From: a virus
DNA length: 22,682 nt
Reading direction: 5' to 3' (one strand)
IMG/VR virus record: IMGVR_UViG_3300031688_000142
Coordinates: 1 to 22,682 of that record
Shown here: in pieces, positions 8,770-22,682 of the stretch
Position numbering within the stretch: position 1 is the first letter of the stretch
How the letters are laid out: every line of letters starts with the position of its first letter
Notes under the pieces: model-generated
Databases searched by the model: none
Told to the model about the DNA's origin: nothing
Seen by the model: only the letters and a program-made list of their open reading frames with translations
Made by a program: the position numbers and the translations under genes

Positions 8770-8988
8770 ATGAGAACATTACTAGAAAGATTAAAGCCAG
8801 AAGTAAGAGATAGATTAAATTTATCTTACAAAGATTTTCCTGATACGTGTGGGAATATTGAGAAATCTTTACACTACAATCACTCAATCATTCAATTAAC
8901 TATTAACGATTGTTGCTCGATATTAACTATGACTACAAGAGAGCCGTTAAGCTTTGAGAATGTTGAACAATTATTTACAGAAAACTAA
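8770..8988 (+). CDS. Hypothetical protein, early operon
   Basis: A 72-aa protein (MRTLLERLKPEVRDRLNLSY...), helical N-terminus followed by NDCCSILTMTTREPLSFENVEQLF. It has three cysteines, two adjacent, without a recognisable metal-site spacing. The start sits in an ACTAAGCTATG context and the gene ends with a TAA that forms part of the ACTAAGATG start box of the next gene. Function unknown. Confidence 0.65.
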   Translation: MRTLLERLKPEVRDRLNLSYKDFPDTCGNIEKSLHYNHSIIQLTINDCCSILTMTTREPLSFENVEQLFTEN

Positions 8989-8989
8989 G

Positions 8990-9184
8990 ATGGGAAAACT
9001 AAAAGAATTATTTTTGAGAACGAGAGTTCAGCATTTAGATAGAGATGAGATGATCGAGCAGCAGATGAACAATGAGTATGCTAGACATTGCGAATTATCA
9101 CAAGAGTGGAACTCAGGAGAACGCTCACCAGTTACACGTTCACTAATGGAGTGGGAGCATTTAGGTAAGCCAAGTAAAAACTAA
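8990..9184 (+). CDS. Small charged protein, early operon
   Basis: A 64-aa protein from ATG 8990. I chose this start over the upstream in-frame ATG 8954 because it carries the recurring ACTAAGATG start context. The product MGKLKELFLRTRVQHLDRDE... is highly charged and helical, with no family recognised. It lies 1 nt after the previous stop and 4 nt before the next start. Confidence 0.65.
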   Translation: MGKLKELFLRTRVQHLDRDEMIEQQMNNEYARHCELSQEWNSGERSPVTRSLMEWEHLGKPSKN

Positions 9185-9188
9185 GAAG

Positions 9189-9563
9189 ATGGATAGAGAA
9201 AAGATAGCAGAGCTGTACAAGAAGTACAACCTAGCAAAAGAAGATATATACAAGCATCAGCATTATCTGATTATCTCTCGTAGTGGTATAGATAAGATAC
9301 AAGCAACGGAAGGAATAGAGATAGCTTACGAGGTTATCAAATGCGAAACTAACTTCTGTGTTGTGAAAGCATCAACGAAGGGATTAGAAACATTTGGAAG
9401 TGCTATAAAAGGAGCATCGTTTAAAGATGGTAATACGAACTCCTGGTATGTTATGGAGATGGCCGAGAAACGAGCAATGAGTAGAATTGTATTAAAAGTA
9501 TGTGGATTCTATCAGCTTGGTATATTCGGAGAAGATGAGAGCGAAGATTTTAAACGTAAATAA
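9189..9563 (+). CDS. Conserved phage protein, possible single-strand annealing protein
   Basis: A 124-aa protein beginning MDREKIAELYKKYNL. The middle part SGIDKIQATEGIEIAYEVI is followed by ETFGSAIKG, and the late segment TNSWYVMEMAEKRAMSRIVL runs on to GEDESEDFK. A helix of the form 'AEKRAmSRavLkl.Gf' next to a beta core occurs in recombination or annealing proteins of phages (Rad52/Erf-like), and a DUF3127 SSB-like gene lies in the same operon. The role in pairing single strands is inference; other DNA-metabolism roles remain open. Confidence 0.45.
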   Translation: MDREKIAELYKKYNLAKEDIYKHQHYLIISRSGIDKIQATEGIEIAYEVIKCETNFCVVKASTKGLETFGSAIKGASFKDGNTNSWYVMEMAEKRAMSRIVLKVCGFYQLGIFGEDESEDFKRK

Positions 9564-11331: not shown

Positions 11332-12405
11332 ATGAAGATAGGAACGGATTTTAGTGGAATAGGTTCACCTGAGAGTGCATTGAAAAGGTTAGGTTTAGAT
11401 ATAGATGAGGTTTTTGCTTGTGAGATTGACAAGTTTGCAAGAGCTTCGTTTAATGAGTTGCATAATCCTACTACAATGTATGAGGATATAACGACAAGGA
11501 ATCACTCAGAAGTGCCTCAGTTAGATTTGTATGTAGCAGGTTTCCCTTGCCAGTCATTTAGTTTAGCAGGTAAGCGTGGAGGGTTTGAAGATACAAGAGG
11601 AACTCTATTTTTTAATGTAGCTGAGTTTATAAAAGAGAATCAACCTAAGTGCTTTGTACTGGAGAATGTAAAAGGATTACTTTCACACGACAACGGAAGA
11701 ACATATCAAACCATTACAGATGTGCTAACGAATGGGGGTGGTACTTTAAACGGACAGATAGGTTTAGATTCCATAGATAATGGATTAGGGTATCATGTGT
11801 ACGCTCAAGTGTTAAACTCTAAGGATTACGGTATACCACAAAATAGAGAGAGAATATTTATAGTAGGGTTTAAAGAATTTAGAGAGTTACGATTCCCTAA
11901 GAAGATGGAGTTAAAGTTGAGGTTAAAGGATTTACTAGAGAAGGAAGTAGATGAGAAATATTATTTGAGTGATAAAAAAATAGCCTTTCTGAAAAGAGCA
12001 GAAGGTACAACATTCAATATAAATAAAGATTTATTAAAAAAAGAACTAAATGATTTATCCAGAACAATAACTAGTAGCTACTACAAGGCAGGTAGGACAG
12101 AACAATACATCTCTCACTCACTTTACCCAAGAAGCTCTAAGACAGGTAAGGGGGGTTCTGGTCATTTATCTAAAGCAGATGGCACAAGTTATTGTGTAGA
12201 TACTGGTTGTTCGCAAGGGGTTGAAGTAAATAAAAGAATAAGAAGATTAACACCTTTAGAGTGTTGGAGATTACAAGGATATACTGATGAGCAATTTAAC
12301 AAAGCTCAGAAAGTAAACTCAGATACTCAGTTATATAAACAAGCAGGTAACTCTATAACCGTTGATGTGATGGTAGAATTATTTAAAAAGATATACGACA
12401 TCTAA
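11332..12405 (+). CDS. DNA (cytosine-5) methyltransferase
   Basis: A complete 357-aa C5-MTase that transfers a methyl group from S-adenosylmethionine to cytosine C5. Motifs in order: I DFSGIGS (6-12), IV FPCQSF with catalytic Cys73, VI ENV (111-113), VIII QNRER (170-174), variable target-recognition region (about 185-300), IX RRLTPLECWRLQGY (304-317) and X AGNSI (338-342). No restriction endonuclease partner is beside it, so it probably protects phage DNA from host restriction, or mimics a host pattern. The recognition region is more A-rich than the flanking coding sequence, as expected for a swapped specificity segment. The target sequence cannot be deduced. Confidence 0.9.
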   Translation: MKIGTDFSGIGSPESALKRLGLDIDEVFACEIDKFARASFNELHNPTTMYEDITTRNHSEVPQLDLYVAGFPCQSFSLAGKRGGFEDTRGTLFFNVAEFIKENQPKCFVLENVKGLLSHDNGRTYQTITDVLTNGGGTLNGQIGLDSIDNGLGYHVYAQVLNSKDYGIPQNRERIFIVGFKEFRELRFPKKMELKLRLKDLLEKEVDEKYYLSDKKIAFLKRAEGTTFNINKDLLKKELNDLSRTITSSYYKAGRTEQYISHSLYPRSSKTGKGGSGHLSKADGTSYCVDTGCSQGVEVNKRIRRLTPLECWRLQGYTDEQFNKAQKVNSDTQLYKQAGNSITVDVMVELFKKIYDI

Positions 12406-16696: not shown

Positions 16697-16753
16697 ATGG
16701 GTTTATTCGGTGCTATAATATTCAGCATTACATTAATACTATTAACGACATGA
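16697..16753 (+). CDS. Possible 18-aa hydrophobic peptide between ParB-like and MTase genes
   Basis: MGLFGAIIFSITLILLTT, all hydrophobic, ending in ATGA overlap with the MTase start at 16750. The frame is also open upstream to GTG 16661 (30 codons), overlapping the ParB-like gene. A coupling peptide or micro membrane protein; real translation is uncertain. Confidence 0.25.
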   Translation: MGLFGAIIFSITLILLTT

Positions 16754-17496
16754 TTGAATTACATAAAGGAGATTGCTTACAAGTTATGAAGGGTATTCCT
16801 TCAGGTAGTGTAGATGCAATCATTACAGACCCACCGTACGGAACAACTGCGTGTAAGTGGGATTCAGTTATAGACTTTACTTTAATGTGGGAACAACTGA
16901 ATAGAATCATTAAACCGAACGGTGCTATTGTATTATTTGGAAGTGAACCTTTTAGTTCTGCTTTACGCATGAGTAACATAAAAAATTATAAGTACGATTG
17001 GAAGTGGGATAAAGTAAACTCTGGAAGCTTTGCAGTTGCTAAATATAGACCATTAACAGTTTTTGAAGATATTATTATTTTTGGTAAAGGCAGAATTAAT
17101 TATTACCCTATAATGGAATTAGCAGAAGATAAAAATAAACGACCAAGAAACGGAGAATATAAGCGTAAAAAAGATAATAGTAATGGAATGGGAAGTGGAG
17201 TATTTAAAAGCTCAAAAAAACATAATGAAAATTTAAGGTTTCCTAAAAACAGGCTTGTATATAATAAAAATAAAGGAGAATTAAACGCTATAAATAGAAT
17301 ACACCCAACACAAAAACCAGTATCACTTATGGAGTACTTAATTAAAACCTACACCAACGAAAATGAAACTGTTTTAGATTTTACAATGGGTTCAGGTAGT
17401 ACAGGAGTAGCAGCAAAGAATACCAACAGAAGCTTCATAGGTATTGAACAAGATGAGAAGTACTTCAATATAGCGAAGGATAGAATCAATGCGTAA
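16750..17496 (+). CDS. DNA amino-methyltransferase (N6-adenine or N4-cytosine), DPPY type
   Basis: A 248-aa beta-class amino-MTase: catalytic motif IV DPPYGTTACKWDSV near the N-terminus (DPPY 27-30), then the target-recognition segment (about 95-185), and the S-adenosylmethionine-binding motif I near the C-terminus (VLDFTMGSGSTG, 208-219, preceded by HPTQKPV). DPPY usually means N6-adenine, and GTTACKWDS is a common variant in phages. The recognition segment (17040-17340) is more A-rich than its flanks. It is coupled to the HNH gene by an 8-nt overlap and preceded by a ParB-like gene, so the three form a module. No classical restriction partner is seen. Confidence 0.85.
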   Translation: MIELHKGDCLQVMKGIPSGSVDAIITDPPYGTTACKWDSVIDFTLMWEQLNRIIKPNGAIVLFGSEPFSSALRMSNIKNYKYDWKWDKVNSGSFAVAKYRPLTVFEDIIIFGKGRINYYPIMELAEDKNKRPRNGEYKRKKDNSNGMGSGVFKSSKKHNENLRFPKNRLVYNKNKGELNAINRIHPTQKPVSLMEYLIKTYTNENETVLDFTMGSGSTGVAAKNTNRSFIGIEQDEKYFNIAKDRINA

Positions 17497-18785: not shown

Positions 18786-20079
18786 ATTTACGAGTAAGCA
18801 GAGGGATTGTTTAAGATTCCTATTCGATGACTACACAAACGAGGTTCTATTTGGTGGTGCTGCAGGTGGTGGTAAGTCTTGGGTAGGTTCTGCTTGGCTT
18901 GTTACTATGTGTTTACGTTATCCTAAGACTCGTTATCTTATGGGAAGGTCTAAGTTAGACGCATTAAAGAAGACTACGTTAAACACATTCTTTGAGGTGT
19001 GTGGTGCTTGGGGTTTAAAGAGTGGAGAACATTATACTTTCAACGGATCGAGTAACATCGTTACATTTAAGAACGGTTCAGAGATTATACTTAAAGATTT
19101 ATTCTTATATCCTTCAGATAGAAACTTCGATAGTCTTGGTTCATTAGAGATTACAGGTGCATTCATTGATGAGGTAAACCAAGTAACATACAAAGCAGTC
19201 AATGTAGTTCAGTCTAGGATTAGATATAAGTTAGACGATTACGGAATCATTCCAAAGCTTCTAATGACTTGCAACCCTGCTAAGAATTGGGTGTATACTG
19301 AATACTATAAACCTGCACAGTTAGGTGCACTTAAAACCTATCGTAAGTTTATACCTTCTCTAGTAACAGATAATCAATTCATCTCTAAACATTATGAGAA
19401 GCAACTATCTAAACTAGATGAAGTTTCTAAGCAACGTCTACTATTTGGAAACTGGGAATATGACGCATCAAGCGATTCACTTATTAACTACGATAGTATA
19501 TTAAACTTATTCGATAACAAAGGAGCAGAGGGAGAGAAGTATATCAGTTGTGACGTTGCTCGTATGGGAGAGGATAAGTCTGTAGTGATGTTATTCGAAG
19601 GGTTACACGTGGTAATGATTAAGACATTCGATAAGAATACAATCACAGAATTAGCTGAATACATTAGAGAGTTGCAAAAGAACCACCAAGTAAAGTTATC
19701 TAACATCATTGTCGATAGTGATGGTGTCGGTGGTGGGCTGCAAGATGTACTAAGGTGTAAAGGATTCATCAACAACGCATCACCAATTAAGAAAGAGAAC
19801 TTTCAGAACCTTAAAACACAATGCTATTACAAACTAGCAGACTTAATTAATAAAGGACAGATAGGTATCACTATTAGAGATGTAGACACACGCAAACACA
19901 TTACAGAAGAATTAGAGCAGGTTAGAACTAAGGATATAGATAAGGACGGTAAACTTAAGATAGTACCTAAAGATGTGGTTAAATCTGTGATAGGTCGTTC
20001 TCCTGATTACTCCGATGCTTTAGCTATGAGAATGTTTTATGAGTTACGTTCTAAGGTTGGAAGGTATGCAGTTAGGTAG
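18769..20079 (+). CDS. Terminase large subunit (packaging ATPase/nuclease), TTG start
   Basis: A 436-aa TerL that powers DNA translocation and cuts concatemers. ATPase: Walker A GGAAGGGKS (29-37), Walker B FIDE (132-135), coupling motif TCNP (167-170). RNase H-like nuclease: Asp262 and Asp269 (CDVARMGEDKS), Asp316 and Asp318 (IIVDSDGVGGG), and Asp413/Asp416 (RSPDYSDAL). The only possible start upstream of Walker A is TTG 18769: a stop codon (TAG 18763) lies just upstream in frame and the next in-frame ATG is beyond Walker A. The TTG overlaps the small-subunit 3' end by 17 nt, giving coupling. Confidence 0.95.
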   Translation: MEISPEFTSKQRDCLRFLFDDYTNEVLFGGAAGGGKSWVGSAWLVTMCLRYPKTRYLMGRSKLDALKKTTLNTFFEVCGAWGLKSGEHYTFNGSSNIVTFKNGSEIILKDLFLYPSDRNFDSLGSLEITGAFIDEVNQVTYKAVNVVQSRIRYKLDDYGIIPKLLMTCNPAKNWVYTEYYKPAQLGALKTYRKFIPSLVTDNQFISKHYEKQLSKLDEVSKQRLLFGNWEYDASSDSLINYDSILNLFDNKGAEGEKYISCDVARMGEDKSVVMLFEGLHVVMIKTFDKNTITELAEYIRELQKNHQVKLSNIIVDSDGVGGGLQDVLRCKGFINNASPIKKENFQNLKTQCYYKLADLINKGQIGITIRDVDTRKHITEELEQVRTKDIDKDGKLKIVPKDVVKSVIGRSPDYSDALAMRMFYELRSKVGRYAVR

Positions 20080-20084
20080 ACTAA

Positions 20085-20103
20085 TATATTTGTTGTATGT
20101 TTG
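20085..20103 (+). promoter_or_regulatory. Tandem Bacteroidota -7 boxes
   Basis: TATATTTG (20085-20092) and TATGTTTG (20096-20103) both match TAnnTTTG and lie before the gene starting at 20125; a good -33 box is not seen. Two overlapping starts are possible. Confidence 0.55.
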
Positions 20104-20124
20104 TGGAAACAAAACAAAACTAAG

Positions 20125-20310
20125 ATGAATAACTTTATAATGATGTTCGGAGAGCAGTCAGAAACTGACTCACTCAATAAGGATATACCAAAGCATATAT
20201 CAACTACACCTCAAGGAACTTACAGAGTAATGATAAGGCAAGTATACTTAGGTACGTTCAAAGAGATGGATCAAGCTAAAGATTCAGTAGACAATTATTT
20301 AAATAATTAA
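20125..20310 (+). CDS. AP2-like small DNA-binding protein
   Basis: A 61-aa protein from ATG 20125 with the ACTAAGATG start box; an in-frame TTG at 20101 is part of the promoter and is rejected. The C-terminal half TPQGTYRVMIRQVYLGTFKEMDQAKDSVDNYL has the three-strand plus helix layout of an AP2/integrase-type DNA-binding domain ('G.yrv.i...ylG.f.t.eeA...v'). It may be a stand-alone regulator or a remnant of an AP2-HNH homing endonuclease that has lost its nuclease half. Confidence 0.55.
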   Translation: MNNFIMMFGEQSETDSLNKDIPKHISTTPQGTYRVMIRQVYLGTFKEMDQAKDSVDNYLNN

Positions 20311-20327
20311 ACTATTTTACAATAAAG

Positions 20328-20358
20328 TTTGGTGGTTCATTTTATTCGCCTATCTTTG
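20328..20358 (+). promoter_or_regulatory. Canonical Bacteroidota promoter
   Basis: TTTG (20328-20331), 19 nt, TATCTTTG (20351-20358): same boxes and spacing as the promoter at 8063-8093. It drives the small gene at 20380, bounded by a terminator at 20607. Confidence 0.85.
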
Positions 20359-20379
20359 TGTAAACTAAAAATAAAAGCT

Positions 20380-20586
20380 ATGAAGAAAGATGTTGGTTAC
20401 GAAATACAATTCGCAGAATATATAGGTACAAGAGCTTATGTGTTTTTAGATTATAGAGATGGAGTAGGTCATTGGGAATCTGAAGATGGGTTAGTAATTA
20501 CTACTGACTCAATGTATGTAGACTTTATCAATATAAAGGAAGCTATTTTCCAAATGGATAAAGTAGGATTAGAATTAAAACAATAA
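20380..20586 (+). CDS. Small protein on its own promoter-terminator unit
   Basis: A 68-aa protein (MKKDVGYEIQFAEYIGTRAYVFLDYRDGVGHWESEDGLVITTDSMYVDFINI...) starting at ATG 20380 in the AAAGCTATGAAG context also used at 8118; the in-frame TTG at 20329 lies in the promoter and is rejected. Beta-rich; family unknown. It has its own promoter and terminator, which suggests that its timing or level differs from the neighbouring tail genes, as for an accessory 'moron' gene. Confidence 0.65.
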   Translation: MKKDVGYEIQFAEYIGTRAYVFLDYRDGVGHWESEDGLVITTDSMYVDFINIKEAIFQMDKVGLELKQ

Positions 20587-20606
20587 TACACAATCCCCCA
20601 GATTGC

Positions 20607-20636
20607 AAGGCTCTCCATAATCGGAGGGCTTTTTTT
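20607..20636 (+). terminator. Rho-independent terminator
   Basis: AAGGCTCTCC / GGAGGGCTTT, a 10-bp stem with two G-U pairs around the loop ATAATC, followed by a T tract (20630-20636). Confidence 0.85.
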
Positions 20637-20663
20637 GTTTATATTTATACAGAATTAAGAAAA

Positions 20664-20679
20664 TACTATTTATATATAT
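20664..20679 (+). promoter_or_regulatory. AT-rich 16-nt motif, second copy, overlapping the chaperone start codon
   Basis: TACTATTTATATATAT is identical to 366-381. Here the last AT belongs to the ATG at 20678, so it cannot be a normal -10 box for this gene. A possible -7-type box, TATATTTA (20640-20647), lies a little upstream. A shared translation leader is as plausible as a phage promoter. Confidence 0.4.
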
Positions 20680-21280
20680 GAAGCTACAGATACCAACAGA
20701 CTTGAGCGAAATAACATTAGGGCAGTTACAATCCCTTACTAAGTTAGAAGCTTCAGAGCTTAACGAGTTAGAGCTACAAAAGAGAACCTTAGAGTTGCTT
20801 ACTGATATAGATAGAGCAACGATAGACCAAATTAAATTGAATGATTTAAACGAGGTGTATGGTAAGCTATTAGGTTTAACTAAGATGAGCGAGGAGTTGC
20901 ATCAGTTCGTTTCTATTGATAATGTAAAATATGGCTTTCATCCTAACTTATCAGAGATGAGTACAGGAGAGTTTGCCGATTTAGACACCCTATGCAAAGA
21001 TTTAAACGACAATTTACACCTTATAATCGCTATTCTTTACAGACCAGTAGCAAAAGAAGCTCACGGAAAGTACTCAATAGAGGCTTACGATGGAGAATTA
21101 GAAGCAAGAGGTAGGATATTTAAGAAGAAAATGAAAGCGAATGTAGTAAACTCTGCATTAGTTTTTTTTTGGACTATCGGAAAAGACTACTTGAACGATT
21201 CGCTAACCTCTTTAGTGGAGGGAGTGGAGACGTCAAGCAACAAAACTTTGGTAAAAAGTGGGGTTGGTATTCAATACTAA
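20678..21280 (+). CDS. Tail assembly chaperone, short form (G-like)
   Basis: A 200-aa, helix-rich protein (MKLQIPTDLSEITLGQLQSL...) placed at the head of the tail operon, as expected for the chaperone that loads tail proteins on the tape measure. After ALVFF (residues 160-164, encoded at the T9 run 21162-21170) the zero frame continues WTIGKDYLNDSLTSLVEGVE...KSGVGIQY and stops at 21278. A second open frame (-1) begins at this run, so the gene pair has the lambda G/G-T layout. Identity as a chaperone comes from position, size and the frameshift; there is no catalytic motif. Confidence 0.6.
   Translation: MKLQIPTDLSEITLGQLQSLTKLEASELNELELQKRTLELLTDIDRATIDQIKLNDLNEVYGKLLGLTKMSEELHQFVSIDNVKYGFHPNLSEMSTGEFADLDTLCKDLNDNLHLIIAILYRPVAKEAHGKYSIEAYDGELEARGRIFKKKMKANVVNSALVFFWTIGKDYLNDSLTSLVEGVETSSNKTLVKSGVGIQY
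21162..21170 (+). other. T9 slippery run, candidate -1 programmed ribosomal frameshift site
   Basis: Nine T residues; in the zero frame they read GTT TTT TTT TGG. The heptamer T TTT TTT (21163-21169) is of the canonical X XXY YYZ form, so both tRNAs can slip back one base, after which reading continues TTG GAC TAT into the 21169-21393 frame. A single extra T in the true genome would give the same fusion. Confidence 0.6.
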
Positions 21281-21393
21281 TGAGTTTATGTAGTGAGGAT
21301 ATACTTAAACTAGATGAAGCTACAAAGATAAGTATAGAACAAGCGTTTACGTTTATGAGTTACAAACAGGATCAAGACAAGATAAAGAAATGA
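21169..21393 (+). CDS. Tail assembly chaperone, frameshift extension (T-like)
   Basis: A 74-codon open frame shifted by -1 against 20678-21280, overlapping it by 112 nt. It has no ATG near its start and is preceded by the slippery T9, so it should be read only as a fusion (164 + 74 = about 238 aa). Residues after the join include FGKKWGWYSILMSLCSEDILKLDEATKISIEQAFTFMSYKQD, a pattern (KWGWY ... l..gDi.k.de.......f.fl.Y..dk) known from C-terminal parts of tail chaperone-type proteins of Bacteroidota phages. Its stop overlaps the MTase start (ATGA). Confidence 0.65.
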   Translation: MDYRKRLLERFANLFSGGSGDVKQQNFGKKWGWYSILMSLCSEDILKLDEATKISIEQAFTFMSYKQDQDKIKK

Positions 21394-22151
21394 TAAAGTT
21401 AAACGAAGTAAGGAACGAGAATTGTCTAGACACGATGGGGTTGATGGAAGATAACTTTATTGATTTAACAGTTACCTCTCCACCTTACGACAATTTAAGA
21501 GACTACAACGGTTATTCTTTTGATTTTGAAAGTATAGCTAAAGAGTTATACAGAGTAACTAAGGTGGGAGGTGTGCTTGTTTGGATTGTAAGTGATGCTA
21601 CTGTAAAAGGAAGTGAGACAGGCACAAGTTTTAAGCAAGCATTATTCTTTAAGGAATGTGGCTTTAATTTAAACGACACCATGATATGGAATAAGGGTAG
21701 TTTTTCAGCCGTAGGTTCTCTCAAATCTAGATATGCTCCTGTATTCGAATACATGTTTATTCTAAGCAAAGGTAAAGCTAAGTCATTTAATCCTATCAAG
21801 GATAGAAAAAATAAGTGGGCAGGGGAGAAACGAAAGCATGTAATGTTTAGGCAAGCTAATGGTACTATAAAACAGACTAGCGGATCTGAAATTAAGGAAT
21901 TTGGGCAAAGGTTTAATATATGGAATTTGCCTCCATCAAAGAATAGGAGTATAAATCACCCTGCTACCTTTCCCGAGCAATTAGCAAATGATCATATAAT
22001 AAGCTGGAGCAACGAGGGTGATTTGGTTTATGATTGCTTTGCTGGAAGTGGCACAACTGCTAAAATGTCTATACTAAATAATAGAAACTACTTAGCTAGC
22101 GAAATGAGTGAGGAGTATTGTGAAATAATAAAAGAAAGAATCAAGAAATGA
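21390..22151 (+). CDS. DNA amino-methyltransferase (SPPY type) inside the tail operon
   Basis: A 253-aa beta-class MTase: TSPPYDNLRDY near the N-terminus (SPPY 30-33), target-recognition segment (about 115-180), then FPEQLAND...VYDCFAGSGTTAKMS (motif I, 215-223). SPPY is typical of N4-cytosine enzymes, though adenine specificity occurs. It is joined by ATGA overlaps to the chaperone extension on one side and to the next virion gene on the other, so it is an insertion adapted to the operon. Without a nearby nuclease it probably protects late progeny DNA. Target unknown. Confidence 0.85.
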   Translation: MIKLNEVRNENCLDTMGLMEDNFIDLTVTSPPYDNLRDYNGYSFDFESIAKELYRVTKVGGVLVWIVSDATVKGSETGTSFKQALFFKECGFNLNDTMIWNKGSFSAVGSLKSRYAPVFEYMFILSKGKAKSFNPIKDRKNKWAGEKRKHVMFRQANGTIKQTSGSEIKEFGQRFNIWNLPPSKNRSINHPATFPEQLANDHIISWSNEGDLVYDCFAGSGTTAKMSILNNRNYLASEMSEEYCEIIKERIKK

Positions 22152-22603
22152 AGACATTTAAATCAGTAGTAGACCAATTCAGAGCGATATGCGAAGCACA
22201 CAAGCAGCTTAATTCGTTTTCCTTTGGTGATATATTCGAAGTAGACTTAACTAATGAGATGAACTTCGCTAAGGCACATCTGATAGAGCAACCTGCTACA
22301 ATTAACAATAGAGATTTTGTATTTACATTTGACCTCCTGGTAATGGATTTAGTAGCTGCAGATGGTTCGAATGAAACTGATGTACTCAATGATACGTTCT
22401 TGATAGTATCAGATATATACAGAGAGATTAAAAGTGGTAATGGTAGAGTAGGTACTCCAATGACATCGAGAGAGTTTGTCGTAAGTGAGAATATTACTTG
22501 TGAACCTTTTACAGATAGATTTGAAAACCTATTAGCAGGATGGAAAGCTACTATTTCAATTACAGTACCTTCACATAACAACGCTTGTAATAACCCTATC
22601 TAG
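22148..22603 (+). CDS. Minor tail or neck protein of the Bacteroidota phage type
   Basis: A 151-aa protein coupled (ATGA) to the MTase. Pattern: FSFGDIFEVDLTNEM..AKAHLIEQPATI, DFVFTFDLLVMDLV, NETDVLNDTFLIVSDIYREI (about 77-96), ENITCEPFTDRFENLLAGWKATISITVP, then a Cys near the C-terminus. This arrangement recurs beside tail assembly and tail-tube genes in Bacteroidota phages, so a virion role is likely; which tail or connector position it takes cannot be read from sequence. The stop TAG overlaps the next GTG start by one base. Confidence 0.65.
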   Translation: MKTFKSVVDQFRAICEAHKQLNSFSFGDIFEVDLTNEMNFAKAHLIEQPATINNRDFVFTFDLLVMDLVAADGSNETDVLNDTFLIVSDIYREIKSGNGRVGTPMTSREFVVSENITCEPFTDRFENLLAGWKATISITVPSHNNACNNPI

Positions 22604-22682
22604 TGGCAGCGTTTGACTATGAAAAAACTAAGAAAGCTCTTAGCAAGTTTGGACTTGATGTCGTTATACGTGCTGCAAGTTT
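22603..22682 (+). CDS. Start of a tail or neck protein (3' truncated), GTG start
   Basis: From GTG 22603 (TAGTG overlap with the previous stop): MAAFDYEKTKKALSKFGLD, then VVIRAAS, open to the window edge. The 'fdy.kt.kaL.kFG..vv' opening is similar to small tail completion or neck proteins. A competing frame from ATG 22619 is also open to the edge; it lacks the 1-nt stop/start overlap seen elsewhere in this operon and the familiar opening, so I prefer GTG. Confidence 0.5.
   Translation, partial: MAAFDYEKTKKALSKFGLDVVIRAAS

Follow-up and report, generated by a model that had tools for sequence, protein, structure and literature searches.

A conserved T run joins two reading frames in a probable tail assembly chaperone gene of marine flavobacterial phages

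The two-form tail chaperone is a textbook case of conserved ribosomal frameshifting. Lambda G/GT consists of a short form and a -1 fused long form whose fused C-terminal domain is its own, an arrangement shared by the family described here, and in phage P2 the E/E+E' pair is likewise made by a -1 shift on a T run. Frames can also be joined by transcriptional slippage. The excerpts of PMC5009743 that we draw on describe bacterial RNA polymerase as slipping efficiently on 9 A or T, with a hybrid of 9-10 bp, and those of PMC1088944 give nine as the length at which selection against A/T runs appears in many bacteria. In Thermus dnaX, Shigella spa13 and IS elements, an A/T run lies at the junction and an extra base leads into the other frame (excerpts of PMC1088944 and PMC5009743); the slippage examples in these excerpts include no phage tail gene. 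Searches of the open-access literature found no paper joining flavobacterial phage, tail assembly chaperone and frameshift, and the portions of that literature covered contained no report of transcriptional slippage in a tail chaperone.

Here we describe such a locus in a complete virus record of 22,682 bases, the whole of which was analysed and is called the window. Our main reading, to which we give a probability of about 0.5, is that one gene encodes two proteins, that the frame changes at a T run, likeliest by RNA polymerase slippage, and that the products are probably a tail assembly chaperone pair.

The T run and the two frames in a family of loci

A preliminary description of this DNA had proposed a -1 programmed frameshift in a tail assembly chaperone gene, and its account of the letters agrees with ours. 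Frame 0 reads GTT TTT TTT TGG within the ORF 20678-21280, the second frame lies exactly -1 to it and extends to 21393 without a usable ATG (frames and start codons were re-read), and the coordinates of the 112-nt overlap agree. The features are as follows.

20678..21280, + strand: frame-0 ORF of the short form, 200 aa (ORF reading, upstream-domain HMM, AlphaFold2 model); residues 1-164 are the N-terminal part and residues 165-200 its own C-terminus
21162..21170, + strand: putative T9 slip run, G TT TTT TTT T GG in frame 0 (sequence, family conservation)
21163-21169, + strand: in-frame heptamer T_TTT_TTT, inside the T9 run
21169..21393, + strand: -1-frame C-terminal part of the long form, 74 aa, with its stop codon at 21391-21393
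21169..21280, + strand: predicted dual-coding overlap of 112 nt, with both frames read (evidence across the family from avoided stops and from substitutions)
21259..21270, + strand: WGWY motif in the -1 frame, where conservation of the long form is highest (W31 and W33 do not vary among 40 sequences)

A shift after GTT TTT TTT gives a fused long form of 164 + 74 = 238 aa. The -1 frame is open from upstream of the T9 run through to its stop, the sole start-like codon at the junction is TTG at 21169, and the first -1-frame ATG 3' of the run, at 21280, lies downstream of the WGWY motif. No other A/T run in the window reaches eight. Just 5' of the gene, at 20607-20640, there is a terminator-like hairpin with a T tail, one such element being found where about one is expected by chance.

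Related loci came from searches by direct similarity, profile scans combined with alignments of the upstream domain, two DNA-pattern scans, a genome scan and two cultured phages. In two of the profile scans 598 and 590 of the first 600 stretches were relatives, with more hits beyond these, and 80 from each were taken into the locus set; the DNA-pattern scans gave at least 120 matches each, a sample biased by its own pattern. Of 564 records scanned with HMMs for the upstream part and for the downstream part, 553 had both, 8 ended at or near the site and 3 lacked the upstream part, the upstream N domain being found in 561. The 553 loci include repeated records, and the distinct fused proteins number 439.

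In all 553 loci the HMMs place the two halves in a -1 relation, and none has them in a single frame or in +1. Overlapping ORFs in this relation, the second without a start of its own, are a feature of lambda G/GT-type genes. The T run, the -1 relation and both frames thus recur in relatives, as the preliminary description had suggested checking. A single-frame relative, one of the two findings that it held would point to a plain gene with a sequence error, was searched for and seen in 0 of 553; the other was T10 in raw reads, leaving one fusion frame, and T10 relatives have a shifted register in which the -1 relation is kept.

Homopolymer runs are generally error-prone, which is what would speak for a sequencing or assembly error in a plain single-frame gene. 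This explanation is contradicted by the -1 relation that all 553 loci, drawn from many samples, and two cultured phages have in common, and the frame-0 tail is kept free of stops; we give it almost no weight.

The longest T run in the overlap of the 553 loci is nine in 369, ten in 177, eleven in 6 and twelve in 1. Our statement on run length rests on the 316 loci found via similarity of the upstream protein, chosen without regard to the run (the query peptides lay 5' of it, except one of six in the direct similarity search): T9 in 256, T10 in 55, T11 in 4 and T12 in 1, with none below nine. A length invariant at nine, as in the first 82 loci, is ruled out by the T10, T11 and T12 runs, and a minimum of nine stands.

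The T9 of the window, in identical phase, is present in the cultured phages P12024S and P12024L. Three MAG contigs from a second genome scan carry the locus under the labels Flavobacteriaceae, Winogradskyella and Bacteroidetes, and the first genome scan returned no prophages. From the cultured phages (Persicivirga/Nonlabens) and the MAG labels, the hosts are flavobacteria. Among the individual members, one with T9 (L151) has no WGWY by simple motif search of its -1 part, and the HMM finds its C domain in the -1 relation. The 47.7-kb contig IMGVR_UViG_3300030061_000336 (L443/L555) holds two diverged copies of the upstream domain, at 8850-9266 and 38019-38432, representing either two phages joined or a duplication.

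In the cultured phages the halves are annotated as two separate hypothetical genes (gp38/gp39 in P12024S, gp40/gp41 in P12024L), and the -1 ORF could be translated alone or by restart after the frame-0 stop. A TAATG overlaps that stop at 21278-21282 in the window, and 38 of 109 lineages have a -1-frame ATG within 20 nt of it, where about 19 would be expected; this excess is largely mechanical, however, because ATGA itself makes the frame-0 stop. Conservation begins at the run. Of 109 lineages, 33 have no ATG in the -1 part and one has an ATG among its first 10 codons; the median position of the first ATG is codon 62, and restart would drop the WGWY domain in most. We therefore consider two separate genes very improbable.

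Selection on both frames of the overlap

Over 108 lineages, the frame-0 tail has a mean length of 52.9 codons, compared with 15.4 expected by synonymous recoding of the -1 part, and 72% of these lineages fall below P 0.1; the same recoding gave no such excess in the third frame or in four control stretches. The median over distinct loci is 56 codons. The tail of 36 codons in the window has P=0.15 and is not significant by itself, so that selection on the frame-0 tail is a property shown by the family and not by the single window.

Substitution rates between pairs of loci give a second line of evidence. Upstream, in frame 0, the rates at the three codon positions are.127/.075/.337, and in the -1 part after the frame-0 stop they are.094/.054/.231; within the overlap, the rates at -1 codon positions 1/2/3 are.162/.096/.171. 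The first 12 codons after the run have a frame-0-like pattern (.154/.051/.088), as do codons 48-60, and the stretch between is -1-frame-like. Judged by this comparison of sequences, the C-terminus of the short form and that of the fused form are both under selection and the overlap is dual-coding, in keeping with the earlier proposal that the two forms differ at their C-termini. If the dual-selection reading is true, the short form is a distinct protein with an extended C-terminus of its own and not a mere truncation.

A stop in the third frame comes after 0-3 codons in 103 of 108 lineages, compared with about 69 expected, as if transcripts of other lengths had to be silenced. As an argument for polymerase slippage this is weakened by its confounding with the frame-0 constraint, which could cause the same excess. 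In the [FY]R motif that follows the run, the Arg codon is AGG in 71 of 95 lineages though AGA is commoner elsewhere; AGG fits a frame-0 Gly and creates a third-frame TAG.

Polymerase or ribosome at the run

Of the programmed -1 frameshift proposed at first, the change of frame at a conserved T run stands (553 of 553 loci), while the ribosome is one possible agent of it. We slightly favour the polymerase, whose role we infer. In the proposed mechanism, a 9-bp RNA-DNA hybrid lying wholly within the T9 run would slip and one extra U would be added, giving a U10 message that an ordinary ribosome would read as GUU UUU UUU UUG GAC, or VFF-LDYR. Most messages would probably be read in frame 0 into the 200-aa short form, a ratio that we infer, and a minority would enter the -1 frame after the residues FF to give the 238-aa fused form with the WGWY domain. 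The short form would be in excess and the long form would bring in tail subunits, like lambda gpG and gpGT.

A -1 ribosomal frameshift on U_UUU_UUU, in which two Phe-tRNAs slip back one base and reading continues in -1, would give the same product; both routes lead to the identical join peptide ALVFFLDYR. This alternative, which we rate a little below even odds, invokes a mechanism known in lambda G/GT and P2 E+E' (excerpts of PMC5009743), and all tail chaperone shifts are described as ribosomal in the portions of the literature covered, which weighs against the polymerase. An X_XXY_YYZ heptamer in frame, the mark of ribosomal -1 shifting, is present in the window as first described and at 553 of 553 sites. 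Since any T run of nine or more holds an in-frame T_TTT_TTT, however, the heptamer follows from the run and is no evidence for the ribosome.

Transcriptional slippage is expected at an A or T stretch that is at least nine long, uninterrupted, placed where the frames meet and maintained by selection, and this is what the family has. The run occurs in three registers, each needing different neighbouring T's. In the commonest register, replacing T8 by C alters neither protein and leaves U_UUU_UUC, yet this variant was found in 0 of 95 lineages (80% clusters) compared with 12.6% expected from codon use (P ~3e-6), and in 0 of 39 at 60% clusters (P ~0.005). An interrupted site, with the run broken and UUUUUUC kept, was also sought throughout the whole viral collection and found nowhere; as a positive control, the matching T9 pattern finds 160 of 404 loci. 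Another pattern scan for an interrupted heptamer gave at least 120 apparent counterexamples, of which 120 were read and set aside: 117 were T10 in a longer register, 1 was T9, and the remaining cases were one real site truncated by the contig edge and one unrelated sequence. Other ORFs of the related loci contain no sense T run of nine or more in 790 kb. Ribosomal shifting would not need nine T's, since P2 E+E' shifts on T6, and the sites include neither a run below nine nor a T_TTT_TTC substitute.

We also looked for RNA structure downstream of the run. Across 109 lineages the mean z was -0.11 and -0.05, the level of shuffled sequences, so that on average no conserved structure of the kind common, though not universal, at ribosomal -1 sites was found, and Rfam gave no match within 20000-22682. 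Taken by itself, the window folds stably at +4..+84 (z -2.9 against shuffles), which counts against the polymerase. Taken together, a minimum of nine T's, no T_TTT_TTC at these sites and no conserved RNA structure on average mean that polymerase slippage fits at least as well as ribosomal shifting.

Two further points count against the polymerase: ribosomal slipping may favour UUU over UUC, which would likewise preserve T8, and the protein sequence, [VLI]-FF-[LF], itself dictates some of the flanking T's. The Phe codon test in the second register (TTT 22, TTC 0) was dropped as evidence, because where the fused residue is Phe TTC is seldom used in any case, with 1 of 12 for register 1 and 0 of 22 for register 2. 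As for the hosts, the excerpts of PMC8710568 report that Flavobacterium johnsoniae ribosomes rarely use Shine-Dalgarno pairing and that prfB frameshifting with an SD-like element exists there; ribosomal frameshifting is therefore possible in flavobacterial hosts.

Identity of the protein and comparison with known systems

Tail assembly chaperone, the identity proposed from the start, is the likeliest role and is unproven: size, position in the tail module, the -1 fusion and a weak fold match make it plausible, and no sequence family of known function includes the protein. Pfam has no family for it, its PHROG (32199) is of unknown function, and a sequence search against the PDB gave nothing. 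In the AlphaFold2 models, the upstream part has a pLDDT of 79.5 and the downstream (-1) part, with a pLDDT of 80, is a small helical domain for which no structural match was found. Compared with 288 chains, the N part has the HK97 tail assembly chaperone 2ob9 as its best fold match, a weak one with Z 4.3 (the next row has 3.2) and an alignment of 64 residues at rmsd 3.3 and 8% identity that covers residues 1-72 of 200. Foldseek against the PDB gave a best E of 0.63 for the upstream part and nothing under E 0.6.

A structural relative of the upstream domain outside the sequence family is found in Flavobacterium phage 6H (AGN89393; KC959568 10352-10927, - strand). It reads TGT TTT TTC TAT (T6C), ends CFFYSTR*, and lies outside the rule of nine or more T's; its -1 frame stops at once and its +1 frame is open for about 40 codons.

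The recoding could instead be real in a protein that is some other tail or connector component, which we consider unlikely. Besides the missing Pfam family and the weak fold match, gene order gives this alternative some ground. In the close relative L569 the gene lies directly behind the terminase and is followed by ORFs of 151 aa, 174 aa (phrog_29822), 517 aa and 753 aa. The fifth ORF after it matches a tape measure profile (phrog_3336, 2e-9), the next one matches head maturation proteases, and more head genes and an ORF of portal size come after these; the window itself has a portal call. The tape measure assignment is tentative, and an adjoining recognised tape measure gene, which is usual for chaperones though not strictly defining, is not seen in L569. 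A short form paired with a -1 fusion, both of about 200-240 aa and encoded in the tail module, is nevertheless characteristic of chaperones, and the best fold match among the 288 chains is to one.

Next to the gene in the window is a DNA methyltransferase ORF (21390-22151; phrog_67, 1.6e-53), which stands between the frameshifted gene and the next gene and whose ATG overlaps the -1 stop; the relatives L004-L007 lack it, and there the next gene directly follows. The ORFs 11332-12405 and 16750-17496 are also DNA methyltransferase-like, as judged by eye.

More broadly, we tentatively propose that a large marine flavobacterial phage lineage makes its chaperone pair by polymerase slippage at nine or more T's, with C-termini both under selection and a distinct short chaperone; we hold this broader proposal to be somewhat less probable than our main reading. 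If it is true, phages use another machine to arrive at the same pair of proteins, just as E. coli and Thermus differ for dnaX.

Several differences separate the family from the systems that it most resembles. Lambda slips on GGGAAAG and leaves 5 frame-0 codons, whereas the family has a T run of at least nine and a selected frame-0 tail (36 codons in the window); no sequence similarity to lambda G/GT was found, and, unlike lambda G/GT, the gene here is without a recognised tape measure neighbour. P2 is closer in the size of its -1 part, which at 57 aa is near the 74 aa of the window, but there the shift site is T6 (TTTTTTG), followed by 6 frame-0 codons, and the family never falls below T9. For Thermus dnaX, Shigella spa13 and the IS elements, slippage is proven by RNA analysis according to the excerpts cited above, whereas here it is proposed from sequence comparison. 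The direct homologues P12024S gp38/gp39 and P12024L gp40/gp41, with the same T9 phase, differ from our description in being annotated as two genes each, and in marine phage annotation two such hypothetical genes should be joined into one.
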